Source: Deltaproteobacteria bacterium
Lineage (GTDB): Bacteria; Desulfobacterota; Desulfobacteria; Desulfobacterales; B30-G6
Length of the DNA: 9,938 nucleotides
Assembly: GCA_003647375.1 (NCBI GenBank)
Contig: QMMS01000164.1
Coordinates: 1-9,938 of the forward strand
Direction: 5' to 3'
Shown: positions 4,794-9,938 of the stretch, one piece after another
Position numbering within the stretch: position 1 is the stretch's first letter
Layout: each line of letters starts with the position of its first letter
The notes under the pieces: generated by a model
What the model saw: the letters and a program-made list of their open reading frames with translations, nothing else
The model's database searches: none
What the model was told of the DNA's origin: nothing
Program-made: the position numbers and the translations under genes

Positions 4794-5213
4794 ATGCAAA
4801 GACTTGGTTCTAATTCTGAAGACATGCGAGACATGAATCTTGATGACACCTTCCTTGGGAGAGTAAAGCTCCTCGTTATCATGATTAAAACCTTTTTAGG
4901 TGATTACCCTCTTGAAGGATATCGGCAAAAAGCTATTTTAAAAAATGCGGAAGTCGTTCAAAATGTCTGTGAAGATTGGAATCGATATATCATCCAGATA
5001 AGATCAACCACTGAACAAAAAGAGGGACTTGAGTTCGATCATATTTTCCATCAGAGAGTCAGCTTGCTTGCTACGATGGCCAAATCTTTTGTAACCGGGA
5101 ACCCAATGGGTTATCATAGAAAAATGGTTATCAGAGCCAACATGGATTATGTATGTGAAACACTCCAGTTTAATCCCCAGGAAGAAGATATTAAGCTTTT
5201 AAAGGTCGCATAG
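4794..5213 (+). CDS. Small protein of two tandem ~45-residue repeats, function unknown
   Basis: I do not recognise this 139-residue protein. It is built from two related halves: residues 18-63 and 83-127. Both follow the pattern (Asp/His)-x-Phe-x-x-Arg-Val-x-Leu-Leu-x-x-Met-x-Lys-(Ser/Thr)-Phe, then Pro-x-Gly-Tyr-x-x-Lys and a late Val-Cys-Glu, with one small indel near the Gly-Tyr and another before the Cys. Each half looks largely helical; no signal peptide or membrane segment is seen. A purine-rich GGAAGGGAGAG stretch (about 4775-4785) precedes the ATG. Its reading frame looks more A/T rich than the flanking operon genes, perhaps indicating separate acquisition. The MetE-like gene follows after 67 bases and could be co-transcribed. 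The duplication and intact frame with a good ribosome binding site make it a real gene; its role is open. Confidence 0.8.
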   Translation: MQRLGSNSEDMRDMNLDDTFLGRVKLLVIMIKTFLGDYPLEGYRQKAILKNAEVVQNVCEDWNRYIIQIRSTTEQKEGLEFDHIFHQRVSLLATMAKSFVTGNPMGYHRKMVIRANMDYVCETLQFNPQEEDIKLLKVA

Positions 5214-6397: not shown

Positions 6398-8203
6398 GTG
6401 CGAGAATTTTCAGACCAACCGGTTGATCGTAACGTGTCTGACCAATCAGCGCCACCCAAACCGCTGGGGTGGCTGGTTGGAAACGTTCACCACGCCAGGG
6501 GCTGGATTCTTCTTTCAGTATCGGCAGGCTTTGCCGGCGGATTGCTATTGATTCTCCAGGCTTCGTTATTATCCAAAATTATTCACGGTGCATTTATCGA
6601 TGGTCTGTCACGAACCGTGATGAATCCACTTTTTCTGATGTTATGCGGTCTGATTGCCTTGCGCGCCGGCCTGGCGTGGGCAAGAGAGGTCTCGGGGTTT
6701 TATGCCGGTGCCGGTGTTCGCCGGGAAGTCCGCATGGCCCTGATGCACCATATCGGTGCCCTGGGACCTGTGCAGGCAGATCGTCCCCACAGTGGTGCCC
6801 TGTCCACCACCATTGTCGAGCAGGTGGAAGCGTTGCAGGCGTTCTACGCACATTATTTGCCCCAACTGGCCCTGGCCGCATCGATCCCGGCGGCCATCGC
6901 GGCCTTTGTGTTTCCCATCAGCTGGGCCGCGGGTGGGCTGCTCCTGCTGACGGCACCGCTGATACCGCTGTTTATGATTCTTATCGGTATGGGTGCTGAA
7001 AATATCAGCCAAAAACACTTTCAGGCTTTGTCCCGCATGAGTGCCCACTTTCTTGATATTCTTCAGGGACTCCCCACCCTCAAACTCATGGGTCACGGCC
7101 GGTCTGAGGAAAAAACCATTGCAAAGGTCTCCGACGAATACCGGCTGCGAACAATGAAAGTACTCCGGGTGGCTTTTTTATCCACAGCCGTGTTGGAACT
7201 GCTCAGTTCTTTATCCATTGCCCTCGTGGCCGTCTACCTGGGAACCACTTATCTTGGATATACCCATTTTGGATTGTACGGACAAATTCTAACCCTGAAA
7301 CAGGGCTTGTTCATTCTACTGCTGGCGCCTGATTTTTATCTACCCCTGAGAGAACTTGGGATTCATTATCACGCCCGTGCGGAAGCCATGGGTGCGGCGC
7401 AAGAAATTCTAGACATTCTCTCCAGGCGTCCGTCAGCGACCTTCACCGGCGTTCGGCAATTGAAGACTTCCACCACACCCCTTACCGTGGACTGCCACAA
7501 GATCCACTTCGCCTATGACAACCGAAAAGAACGGGTGTTAACAGATGTCAGTATAGAATTGACGCCGGGAGAACACGTGGCATTAGTGGGAGAGAGCGGG
7601 GCTGGAAAAACCACGCTCCTGAACCTTTTACTGGGATTTATACAATCTGACAAGGGTGAAATCCGTGTCAATGGCCATCCCCTCTCGGAGTTGGCATTGG
7701 AAACCTGGCACCAGTCGCTGGCCTGGGTTGGGCAGCATCCCATGTTGTTCCATGATACCATTGCCGGCAATATCGGCATGGCCCTGCCGGGTGCAACGCA
7801 AACAGAGATCGAACAGGCCGCCCGTTCTGCCCGCGTACTTGATTTTGCGCGGCACCTTCCCAGGGGTCTCGACACGAAGGTGGGCGAACAAGGCTGGGGA
7901 CTATCCCGGGGCCAGGCCCAGCGCGTGGCGATAGCGCGTGTGTTTCTAAAAGACGCGCCCATTCTGCTGCTGGATGAACCTACCGCCGGTCTGGATGTCG
8001 ACACCGCACACGCGGTGATGCAGGCCATCGCATCCTTTTCAAAAGATCGAACGGTTCTGTTGCTCACCCATCGGTTGGATCAACTTCAAATTGCTCACCG
8101 AATCATCGTTATGGCCGGGGGAAGACTGGTGGATCAAGGCAGTTATGCAGAACTCATGAATCGTCAGGGTGTCTTTAGGGAAGCAATGAACGGTAAGCAA
8201 TAA
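6398..8203 (+). CDS. cydD: CydD, ABC exporter subunit for cytochrome bd assembly
   Basis: The product has 601 residues from GTG 6398, with GGGGA nine bases before it. A TTG at 6380 in frame would add six residues but has its purine stretch too close. It is an inner-membrane half-transporter: membrane domain to about residue 325, ending in the CydD-like LPLRELGIHYHARAEAM segment, then a nucleotide-binding domain with Walker A GESGAGKTT (398-406), Q-loop WVGQHP (443-448), signature LSRGQAQR (502-509), Walker B ILLLDEPTAGLD (522-533) and switch His558. The usual CydD signature is LSVGQ, so Arg is a small variation. CydD pairs with CydC. The complex has been described as a cysteine/glutathione exporter and, more recently, as a heme transporter; in either view it is required for cytochrome bd maturation. 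The stop codon and last four codons lie in a 7-base repeat array. Confidence 0.93.
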   Translation: MREFSDQPVDRNVSDQSAPPKPLGWLVGNVHHARGWILLSVSAGFAGGLLLILQASLLSKIIHGAFIDGLSRTVMNPLFLMLCGLIALRAGLAWAREVSGFYAGAGVRREVRMALMHHIGALGPVQADRPHSGALSTTIVEQVEALQAFYAHYLPQLALAASIPAAIAAFVFPISWAAGGLLLLTAPLIPLFMILIGMGAENISQKHFQALSRMSAHFLDILQGLPTLKLMGHGRSEEKTIAKVSDEYRLRTMKVLRVAFLSTAVLELLSSLSIALVAVYLGTTYLGYTHFGLYGQILTLKQGLFILLLAPDFYLPLRELGIHYHARAEAMGAAQEILDILSRRPSATFTGVRQLKTSTTPLTVDCHKIHFAYDNRKERVLTDVSIELTPGEHVALVGESGAGKTTLLNLLLGFIQSDKGEIRVNGHPLSELALETWHQSLAWVGQHPMLFHDTIAGNIGMALPGATQTEIEQAARSARVLDFARHLPRGLDTKVGEQGWGLSRGQAQRVAIARVFLKDAPILLLDEPTAGLDVDTAHAVMQAIASFSKDRTVLLLTHRLDQLQIAHRIIVMAGGRLVDQGSYAELMNRQGVFREAMNGKQ

Positions 8204-8243
8204 GCAGTTAGCGGTAAGCAAACTTAGAGCTTATTGCTTACCG
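8191..8243. repeat. Heptamer array with inverted copies overlapping the cydD stop
   Basis: Direct 7-base units run CGGTAAG (8191), CAATAAG (8198), CAGTTAG (8205), CGGTAAG (8212). After an 11-base interval come the inverted units CTTATTG (8230-8236) and CTTACCG (8237-8243). As a result 8191-8205 is a perfect 15-base inverted repeat of 8229-8243, and 8210-8220 can alternatively pair with 8235-8245. The two hairpins exclude one another. The cydD stop TAA (8201-8203) is inside the second unit. Five T residues follow at 8257-8261, but too far from the stem for a standard terminator. Confidence 0.8.
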
Positions 8244-8296
8244 CTGCATGTGACTAATTTTTCAGAAAGCGCTAAATTGCTTTAATGCTGGAAACT

Positions 8297-8424
8297 GAAT
8301 GAATATCGAACGTCCAACATCGAATTTCGAATTTGAGAAGATGAAGAAACAGAAATAATTCGGTATTGGTTTTTTGTTTTCATTCGACATTGGACGTTCG
8401 ATGTTCGATGTTGGACGTTCATCT
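8297..8424. repeat. Second heptamer array forming a large palindrome between cydD and cydC
   Basis: The left arm is a run of 7-base units: GAATGAA (8297), TATCGAA, CGTCCAA, CATCGAA, TTTCGAA, TTTGAGA, AGATGAA (8339-8345). The right arm holds the inverted family: TTCGACA (8383), TTGGACG, TTCGATG, TTCGATG, TTGGACG, TTCATCT (8418-8424). Bases 8308-8324 and 8404-8420 are a perfect 17-base inverted repeat. Within the right arm the TTCGA-N2-TTGGACG block repeats after 21 bases, three units. The A/T-rich middle (8346-8382) shows no unit structure. With the first array it fills most of the 261-base gap. Confidence 0.85.
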
Positions 8425-8464: not shown

Positions 8465-9938
8465 ATGCTCAAAAACCTAATACCCTTTATCCGCCAGTTC
8501 CGGCCGCACTGTCGTTGGATGGGGTTGGGCATTTTGTTGGGATGGTTGGCCGTCATGGCCTCGGTGGGACTTTTGGCTTTGTCGGGCTGGTTCATATCTG
8601 CTGCAGCCTTTGCCGGGTTGTCCCTGGGTACCGCTTATCTTTTCAACTTTTTTTTCCCCAGTATCGGTGTGCGGCTGTTTGCCTTCACCCGCACCCTGGC
8701 CAGATATGCCGAACGAATCGTGACCCACGATGCTACCTTCCGTATGCTGGCCACGCTCAGACTCTGGTTTTACCGGAAAATCGAACCATTGGCCCCTGCC
8801 CGCCTGATGCAATACCGCAGCACCGACATCCTGAACCGCATTGTGGCCGACATCGAAACCCTTGACAATCTGTATGTCAGAGTGCTTTCCCCCAGCGTGA
8901 CGGCTTCATTGACCATCATTGCGGTGGTTCTTTTTCTGGCTGTTTTCGATATCTGGATTGCAGGAACCGCTCTCCTGTTTCTGCTGATATCCGGAATCGC
9001 TCTCCCCTTGGCAGCGGCCGGAGCCGGAGCCGACATGGGTCGGCAGTTGACCATTAGCACTGCCAAAATAAGAATACTGGCTGTTGAAGGTATCCAGGGC
9101 TTATCCGAGCTTATGGTTTTTGGTGCCTGGAAAAAGCAAGTGAATACGCTTGAGAAGGAGAGCGACGCATTGATCCACATCCAAGGCCAAATGAGTCATA
9201 TCCGGGGTTTATCACTCGCTGGAGCTACCCTGTTGACAGGCATGGCAACACTGGCCTGTTTATACATCGGGGTTCACCAGGTTGGTCGAGGTATGCTGGA
9301 CGGTGCCAACCTGGCGTTGGTCGGTTTTGCTGTATTGGCATCTTTCGAAGCACTTTCACCACTGCCCGCCGCCTATCAGTATCTCGGACAAACGAAAGAG
9401 GCCGCCGGGAGACTGCTCGAGCTTGTGGATGCACCCCCAGTCGTCCTCTTCCCGGACGTTTCAGGCGCTCCTATCGAACGCTACAATATTCACTTTAAAA
9501 ATGTTAATTTCCACTATGGGAATTCCGACCCATGGGTTCTTGAAGGGGTTGACCTGCGCATAGAGCAGGGCCAACGCGTGGCCATTCTGGGTGAGACGGG
9601 TGCCGGCAAATCGACCCTTTTCAACCTACTGGTACGATTCTGGAATCCGGTAAAGGGAAGTATTCATGTCGGCGGCCATGATCTTAAAACCTTTGCCGAG
9701 TCAGATTTGCGGCGGACCATCGGAGTTGTTTCCCAGCAAGCCCATCTGTTTCATACCACCTTGCGTAAAAACCTTTTATTGGCCCGACCCGAGGCTGACG
9801 AAACAGCGTTGAAATCAGCGCTGGAAAAGGCACAACTGCTCGATTGGGTTGAAACACTTCCCCAGGGATTGGATAGCTGGATAGGGGAAGGTGGCAGCGG
9901 CCTCTCCGGCGGCCAGGCCCGTCGATTGAGTCTGGCCC
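8465..9938 (+). CDS. cydC: CydC, ABC exporter subunit for cytochrome bd assembly, cut by the window end
   Basis: The frame is open from ATG 8465 to the window end: 491 complete codons of an expected 550-600. The membrane domain carries strong CydC features: LSGWFISAAAFAG (residues 39-51), YAERIVTHDATFRML at about 80-95, and ILNRIVADIETLDNLYVRVLSP near 120-140, written here in two parts of one block. The nucleotide-binding domain shows Walker A GETGAGKST (376-384), a Q-loop VVSQQAH, and the signature LSGGQARR (480-487); Walker B and the switch His lie beyond the end. It partners CydD in the inner membrane to form the CydDC exporter needed for cytochrome bd. cydD and cydC are often adjacent or overlapping, but here 261 bases of repeats separate them. 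The ribosome binding site is weak (AAAGA near 8443 is far from the ATG), so expression may depend on the leader. Confidence 0.93.
   Translation, partial: MLKNLIPFIRQFRPHCRWMGLGILLGWLAVMASVGLLALSGWFISAAAFAGLSLGTAYLFNFFFPSIGVRLFAFTRTLARYAERIVTHDATFRMLATLRLWFYRKIEPLAPARLMQYRSTDILNRIVADIETLDNLYVRVLSPSVTASLTIIAVVLFLAVFDIWIAGTALLFLLISGIALPLAAAGAGADMGRQLTISTAKIRILAVEGIQGLSELMVFGAWKKQVNTLEKESDALIHIQGQMSHIRGLSLAGATLLTGMATLACLYIGVHQVGRGMLDGANLALVGFAVLASFEALSPLPAAYQYLGQTKEAAGRLLELVDAPPVVLFPDVSGAPIERYNIHFKNVNFHYGNSDPWVLEGVDLRIEQGQRVAILGETGAGKSTLFNLLVRFWNPVKGSIHVGGHDLKTFAESDLRRTIGVVSQQAHLFHTTLRKNLLLARPEADETALKSALEKAQLLDWVETLPQGLDSWIGEGGSGLSGGQARRLSLA

Follow-up and report, generated by a model that had tools for sequence, protein, structure and literature searches.

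The palindrome at positions 8297-8424 of the window (the whole stretch of DNA analysed here, 9,938 bases) probably descends by internal deletion from a minimal mobile element in which an S23 gene lies between inverted arms of tandem heptamers, and would be a non-autonomous copy of it. A preliminary description of this DNA had recognised a large palindrome with a period of seven and had preferred a common generating mechanism to a single transposed element. The periodic palindrome is borne out below; the preference is not, since two-armed elements of this kind are dispersed and the catcgaa palindrome is one of them, its relatives hold reduced gene remains at their centre, and gaps both with and without the element are found.

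Lag-7 identity over 8297-8424 is 0.562, against a mean of 0.266 (sd 0.043) in 2000 dinucleotide shuffles, none of which equalled it at lag 7 or attained it at any lag from 3 to 14. The right arm (8381-8420, 0.788) is the top 40-base lag-7 stretch of the window, tied with that at 8380, and the value of the left arm (8297-8336, 0.636) was reached by 0 of 2000 shuffles at lag 7 and by one at any lag from 3 to 14. A perfect 17-base inverted match pairs 8308-8324 with 8404-8420; as the longest such match in 300 shuffles was 16 bases, it is by itself only modestly unusual. The period-7 signal thus survives a randomised test. Some details needed correction: the seven and six units once claimed come to about five per arm in our count, and the "21-base direct repeat" is in fact a 17-base, 88% copy at a spacing of 21, the longest exact direct repeat being 10 bases where shuffles attain 15. 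Folded as RNA, the palindrome scores z -4.7 against shuffles, and both it and the full-length element L202 fold well (the latter on the strand opposite its gene, with 20 shuffles). Tandem 7-base units in intergenic DNA make it a heptameric simple sequence repeat, and an Rfam scan of the window gave no match at the gathering threshold.

Table 1. Features of the window element and its surroundings (window positions).
Feature	Position	Strand	Basis
Probable non-autonomous, internally deleted S23-type element, CATCGAA family	8297..8424	+	Lag-7 identity, inverted match, dispersed two-armed relatives, likely gene remnant
Left heptamer arm, 5' of gene remnant	8301..8336	+	Lag-7 identity 0.636 (8297-8336); similar arm 5' of full-length S23 genes
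Likely S23 gene remnant, ATGAAGAAACAGAAATAA	8341..8358	+	Reading of a short sequence
Likely remnant of the element's 3' untranslated part, TTCGGTATTGGTTTTTTGTTTTC	8359..8381	+	Alignment of core to 3' ends of L162 and L204
Right heptamer arm, inverted	8382..8420	-	Lag-7 identity 0.788; standard form seen in viral stretches and G001
Second palindromic heptamer array, GTAAGC family	8181..8245		Lag-7 identity 0.486; fold z -5.7; family flanks S23 gene L153
ABC transporter gene, left neighbour	6398..8203	+	Pfam ABC_membrane, ABC_tran
Second ABC transporter gene, right neighbour, runs off the window	8465..9937	+	Pfam ABC_membrane, ABC_tran

The window element is laid out as arm, ATGAAGAAACAGAAATAA, arm. 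Units of the left arm include ATCGAAC, GTCCAAC, ATCGAAT and TTCGAAT, and the right arm, read on the minus strand, follows the family standard from GATGAAC through GAATGAAAA. Between them, ATGAAGAAACAGAAATAA reads as MKKQ, a gene start, joined to KQK*, a gene end, giving MKKQK*: its first 12 bases are those of the start of L214 and its last 15 bases those that end L202. The joint of the deletion likely lies in AAGAAACAG, the sequence with which the L202 gene closes and of which a near copy lies at its start. Aligned with L162 and L204, the core scores 38 and 42 at their 3' ends, against shuffle maxima of 35 and 35 (500 shuffles). In all, the core was compared with ends of full elements eight times, and in four of these it scored above every one of 500 shuffles. 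The start codon, arms and inner borders match those of the full-length L201, L202, L204 and L162, in which CATCGAA arms flank S23 genes of the MKKQ type and the arm is followed by ATGAARAAACAR; the L202 gene ends GAAAAGAAACAGAAATAA. L267, an S23 gene with arms of another kind, has a similar start, MKNQ. Profile searches did not detect an S23 protein in the window element, where the likely remnant spans only 12-18 bases, and because the element holds no PF05635 protein we file it as a derivative and not as an S23-bearing element. It combines the terminal inverted repeats and internal-deletion origin of a MITE; that origin is firm for the copies in genome G001, and for the window copy a short sequence suggests descent from a coding element.

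The CATCGAA family recurs beyond the window. Its 17-base core, GAACGTCCAACATCGAA, was found in 41 IMG/VR stretches, many of which show by eye the longer standard form (GATGAAC ... GAATGAAAA); some of these matches (L007, L029) look like chance, and several contigs are near-duplicates. The family is dispersed in G001, a Deltaproteobacteria MAG, where a looser pattern matched 23 times and its reversed control not at all. Among the 11 G001 loci that were read, 9 of 12 sites are convergent pairs under the strict pattern, and a degenerate second arm is visible by eye in L106 and L111. Across the class, 36 of 147 genomes contain the 18-base unit pattern, with a maximum of 191 matches in one genome, as against 4 of 147 for its reversed control (three genomes with one match, one with six). 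The spacer of the CATCGAA element at L114 (about 1140-1260) holds an unrelated palindromic heptamer array of the GCATAGCTGATAGC kind, an instance of nested elements.

Copies in G001 retain larger parts of such a gene than the window element does. The start motif beside the arm is kept in 4 of the 11 loci (L107, L110, L114, L116). A profile of CATCGAA-type proteins, run against these 11 loci, found S23 gene remnants inside two gene-less copies: 24 readable N-terminal codons remain in L111 (E 0.0023) and C-terminal codons in L116 (E 0.024); the general S23 profile detected neither. It is because these relatives keep the start motif, N-terminal codons or C-terminal codons that we regard our reading of the window remnant as likely. 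Though gene-less copies abound in G001, the S23 genes that could be read there from end to end are all of types other than CATCGAA.

Arrays in viral loci mostly stand alone: 78 of the 80 sites are solo and two are pairs (strict pattern; many contigs are near-duplicates), so arrays also occur apart from a partner arm, and we rejected the phage arrays as two-armed elements. The general S23 profile matched two viral loci, L022 and L024 (E 9.6e-5; near-duplicate contigs), and tblastn placed S23 in two phage records. One viral contig, IMGVR_UViG_3300033145_001804 (L023, L025, L034), has seven or more intergenic CATCGAA cores, with other heptamer families visible by eye; its PHROGs include a transposase, a DNA transposition protein, a portal and a head protease, which suggests a Mu-like phage.

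Such repeats are known around genes for four-helix-bundle proteins, which prompted a test of PF05635 (S23, the 23S rRNA intervening-sequence protein). The family was present in 16 of 16 chosen array-bearing genomes and in 0 of 14 control genomes, and over the class in 102 of 147; 4 of the 36 array-bearing genomes gave no S23 match. Inverted flanks, defined as at least three 9-mers common to the upstream flank and the reverse complement of the downstream flank, were found for 79 of 124 S23 genes, compared with 2 of 124 when flanks were mispaired and 4 of 137 control genes, all of the latter from G001. Windows with lag-7 identity of at least 0.68 lay in both flanks of 25 of the 124 S23 genes and of none of the 137 controls; lag 7 dominates in S23 flanks, with a minority at lag 8. 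The 124 genes derive from 139 open frames in 132 loci, after frames below 85 aa, duplicates and short or N-rich flanks were dropped; as 52 loci were given by searches and 80 were chosen by hand (20 of these being weaker matches, many of them expected to be of the CATCGAA kind), the set is not a random sample. The 45 genes that fail the test include the two C201 copies in G001 that have no array. When 206,674 unbiased bases of G001 were scanned at a threshold of 0.74, three arrays appeared at lag 7 and one each at lags 8 and 9, with none at eight further lags; at 0.70, one of five lag-7 arrays had an inverted partner. A partial S23 frame was seen by eye directly after a tRNA-Ser-like gene at L210 (G001:C11).

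Among the elements listed, related S23 genes carry related units, as read by eye in their flanks. Arms were common to 74 of 81 cross-genome pairs with at least 70% protein identity and to 40 of 76 pairs at 60-70%; sharing declines to the background level once identity drops under about 45-50%, standing at about 12% below 45%. We rejected this coupling as proof of recognition of the arrays by the protein, since a gene and arms inherited together would produce it equally well. Genes of a second family, GxxExxY (PF13366, PDDEXK_3; loci L291-L314, 22 of 24 used), passed the inverted-flank test in 15 of 22 cases, with 2 when mispaired, and look like a sister class of one-gene elements. Their flank units appear to be 8-9 bases long, of the CGCAAAGG, CACGAAGAA and CACAGAG kinds.

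The gap that holds the window element, between two ABC transporter genes and thus outside rRNA, contains a second array. Lag-7 identity over 8180-8260 is 0.486, which 0 of 2000 shuffles reached, and the fold scores z -5.7; the exact inverted match of 15 bases within it does not stand out alone, since shuffles attain 18. Arms of this GTAAGC kind flank an S23 gene of the MRDFKTLKVW type on contig C286 of G001 (L153), and the array belongs to an S23 family other than that of CATCGAA. Two unrelated heptamer families of one architecture had indeed been reported in this gap, and both flank S23 genes in inverted orientation elsewhere. A common cause for them is likely on that account. Half of the mechanism suggested earlier may survive as an explanation of how arms change: genomes that share one insertion site (carA-carB, below) each have a unit of their own, which slippage or conversion within the arms would fit. 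The flanking genes are presumably CydD-like on the left and CydC-like on the right, judged by position, and the part of the GTAAGC array at 8181-8203 supplies the stop codon (8201-8203) of the former. Further upstream (4794-5213), a 139-codon open frame with no Pfam family lies between a DUF4129 protein and a MetE-like protein.

The nearest relative found is the Deltaproteobacteria MAG G001 (L082), whose best segment is 85% identical to the ABC protein. Between its two ABC genes a GTAAGC-family palindrome is present and the catcgaa palindrome was not found. By eye, the L082 array (9690-9800) begins inside sequence that is coding in the window, so that the L082 gene ends earlier and its protein is shorter; as the spacer on both sides of the missing palindrome is also absent, insertion and deletion look alike at this locus. 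Elsewhere, occupied and unoccupied gaps occur in two lineages. At L111, 298, 300 and 304 bases of G001 lie between the aligned flanks, compared with 53, 145 and 75 in G148, G063 and G149, where the element was not found and nothing aligned to it. Ruminococcus flavefaciens MC2020 has, between argG and argH (genes read by eye), an S23 gene whose arms are made of GTTAGCC units, and in Ruminococcus relatives there are gaps that lack the element, in contrast to G151, G188 and G182. Of 30 Ruminococcus loci, three align over the whole stretch (one being the query genome), L322 aligns over the element and right flank, 15 align at the right flank alone, and 11 have both flanks, separated by 14 to 1044 bases of other sequence. 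Among these 11, a GTTAGCC arm precedes another gene in L329, and L333 has short tandem repeats of other kinds. A clean target-site duplication was not readable from the gaps compared, as orthologous gaps are too diverged to fix the borders.

The association extends to other phyla. In an order of Pseudomonadota, PF05635 was found in 74 of 200 genomes, and 14 of 29 S23 genes had inverted flanks, against a mean of 1.0 and a maximum of 3 when mispaired (29 of 30 loci used, these being part of the PF05635 matches). Among the 30 loci, the S23 gene stands before carB in seven and before accC in five, names being taken from protein starts. At the carB site (L363, L364, L365, L368, L372, L373, L383) the commonest heptamer differs in each of the seven genomes (GGGACTC, GGGACCG, GGGACCC, GGGAGCA and others), S23 identity is 0.41-0.76, and upstream-flank lag-7 identity is 0.57 to 0.80 in the six scored. 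None of these six passes the inverted-flank test, only the upstream array being apparent, which suggests that the second arm there is short or lost. Either one old insertion has changed over time or insertions struck this site repeatedly; differing units would fit arms rewritten in place by slippage with conversion, with repeated insertion as the alternative. Before accC, four of five pass, with units of the GGGAATC and GGGATTC types.

Named replicons of Cyanobacteriota, Bacillota, Pseudomonadota and Gemmatimonadota gave inverted flanks in 12 of 18 cases, a count that has no mispaired control beside it; those passing include Nostoc plasmids (GGGAACA units), Azospirillum and Gemmatirosa (8-base units). 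This set comprises L315 and 17 of 40 plasmid matches, taken mostly in rank order (of the first 22, H11, H17 and H19-H21 were skipped, and none was read after H22); L346 is nearly identical to L347, and L350 counts as a pass though both of its arrays read in the same direction. On three cyanobacterial plasmids (L350, L351, L352), two S23 genes are flanked by cas6 and cas4 and the third by cas10 and cmr3, all with arrays on both sides. Eighteen S23 genes are listed in cas loci (PMC3936711); if our reading is true, these may be insertions and not parts of CRISPR-Cas.

On this reading a full element, about 0.5-0.6 kb long, consists of tandem heptamers, one S23 gene encoding a four-helix-bundle protein, and the same heptamers inverted. 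The window copy would have lost its coding region by recombination between short repeats (AAGAAACAG) at either end of the gene. For its mode of movement, we infer that S23 would bind the arms of its own element, either as a DNA hairpin or as the long RNA hairpin of the transcript, and, since no nuclease or polymerase is encoded, would bring in a host enzyme. Gene-less copies might then ride in trans on S23 made elsewhere, or be dead relics. Slippage, together with conversion from arm to arm, would let the unit drift while the period stays at seven, so that each lineage comes to have its own heptamer.

A link to reverse transcriptase, which the preliminary description had suggested, did not hold. 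Array counts over the 147 genomes track S23 counts (rho 0.43, p 4e-8) and show no correlation with RVT_1 (rho 0.09, p 0.29), and we rejected this enzyme as the partner. The window element contains no reverse transcriptase, and 12 of the 36 array-bearing genomes, G001 among them, have no RVT_1 match (drafts may be incomplete). As arrays follow S23 and not RVT_1, reverse transcriptase is a poor candidate for a fixed partner. S23 and reverse transcriptase correlate weakly (rho 0.20, p 0.016; Fisher p 0.004), a relation that the size of genomes or their overall load of mobile DNA may account for. A sequence profile of S23 run on the PDB recovered 2RLD and 2GSC below E 1e-30; three further matches at E 0.13-0.29 look like chance, and a link to Avd by this route was rejected. 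The 2GSC protein (XCC0516 of Xanthomonas) is a homopentamer of four-helix bundles (PMC4990558).

Two other origins for the palindrome have to be weighed against an S23 element. One is a MITE or REP/BIME family of the classical sort, mobilised by a DDE or Y1 (RAYT) transposase and carrying S23 along as a passenger. It would account for short, palindromic, intergenic, dispersed and internally deleted forms; upstream of the L169 S23 gene there is, moreover, sequence that by eye resembles the truncated start of a Y1 transposase, with similar letters in L262. In the S23 elements listed, however, the arms lie at most 200 bases from the gene, leaving no room for a transposase, and none was seen between arms; REPs, for their part, are palindromes of 20-40 bases and not heptamer arms (PMC3733652). 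We consider this origin unlikely. Growth in place, each site independently acquiring tandem heptamers by slippage and an inverted arm by template switching, with the period of seven set by the polymerase footprint, seems slightly less probable still. Heptamers are over-represented among bacterial simple repeats, for which a polymerase-footprint cause has been proposed (PMC4692102), and the change of main unit in each of the seven carA-carB genomes implies that units may drift in place. Yet growth of this kind does not lead one to expect a single unit family with the same end sequences at many unlinked sites as well as in 36 of the 147 genomes, an association with one gene family, or gene remnants in the centre of copies.

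That the palindrome is a plain regulatory hairpin, a terminator or mRNA stabiliser kept for its role between two ABC transporter genes, is very improbable, despite its stable fold (z -4.7) and its position between two co-directional genes: it was already disfavoured by not being found in the orthologous L082 gap, and the same element stands in unrelated gaps, with relatives that carry gene remnants. A secondary regulatory role of the hairpin is possible. An internally deleted S23 element is the reading that we retain.

Several components of this reading are in print: S23 genes in intervening sequences (IVS), the Coxiella heptamers, mobility as a guess, and heptamer repeats. The S23 gene lies inside 23S rRNA IVS, for example in Coxiella burnetii, where a single S23 gene within a long inverted repeat is preceded, directly before its start codon, by tandem GACAGAT heptamers of variable number, as in the present elements (PMC4990558); IVS mobility was suggested earlier (Ralph and McClelland 1993, cited in PMC4990558). 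Unlike rRNA IVS, the elements described here lie between protein genes, both of their arms are heptamer arrays, gene-less deletion copies abound, and units differ by S23 lineage. MITEs and REP/BIME families are likewise short, dispersed, non-autonomous and palindromic, whereas here the arms are heptamer arrays and the parent gene is S23. We know of no transposase for heptamer-armed S23 elements. The PF05635 family resembles Avd, the accessory protein that partners reverse transcriptase in diversity-generating retroelements, and is homologous to it by sequence and structural alignment (PMC10053308); S23 elements differ from those retroelements in having no RT, TR or VR.

Intergenic heptamers have been described in several groups. 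Units of the GGGAATC type, the Xanthomonas repeat, flank S23 genes before accC here. The STRR heptamers of cyanobacteria are intergenic direct repeats. The GGGAATC repeats of Xanthomonas, with 70 convergent inverted pairs in one genome and 75 in the other, and the GGGGA(C/T)T repeats of Nostoc are intergenic heptamers too, but are treated as G-quadruplex repeats in a paper whose main text contains none of the terms S23, XCC0516 or intervening, and which also mentions Calothrix heptanucleotides (PMC4692102). The TAACTGA direct repeats of Beggiatoaceae, again intergenic heptamers, were read as possible regulator binding sites, and the abstract reports one indirect repeat among 169 sets and makes no link to S23 (PMC4679880). 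Like the present heptamers, the TAACTGA and STRR repeats are patchy over phyla. In the open-access literature (PubMed Central, as distinct from subscription journals), we recognised no paper that joins heptamers and S23 for intergenic elements.

A broader proposition, which we regard as evenly balanced, is that these sequences represent a widespread, unnamed class of minimal elements in five phyla. In each, an S23/Avd-like gene would lie between inverted heptamer arms, with a cognate heptamer co-evolving in each lineage and with full and gene-less copies multiplying; arrays in phages, whole elements on plasmids and the GxxExxY sister class would belong to the same picture, much of the unexplained heptamer content of bacterial genomes would be accounted for, and rRNA IVS would be copies that landed in rRNA. 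The structures of S23 proteins have been solved and their function is unknown (PMC4990558), and the heptamer repeats of cyanobacteria, Xanthomonas and Beggiatoaceae have been noted repeatedly with no agreed cause. If heptamers are the ends of S23 elements, S23 would gain a predicted target and many intergenic repeats an origin, both of which are testable.
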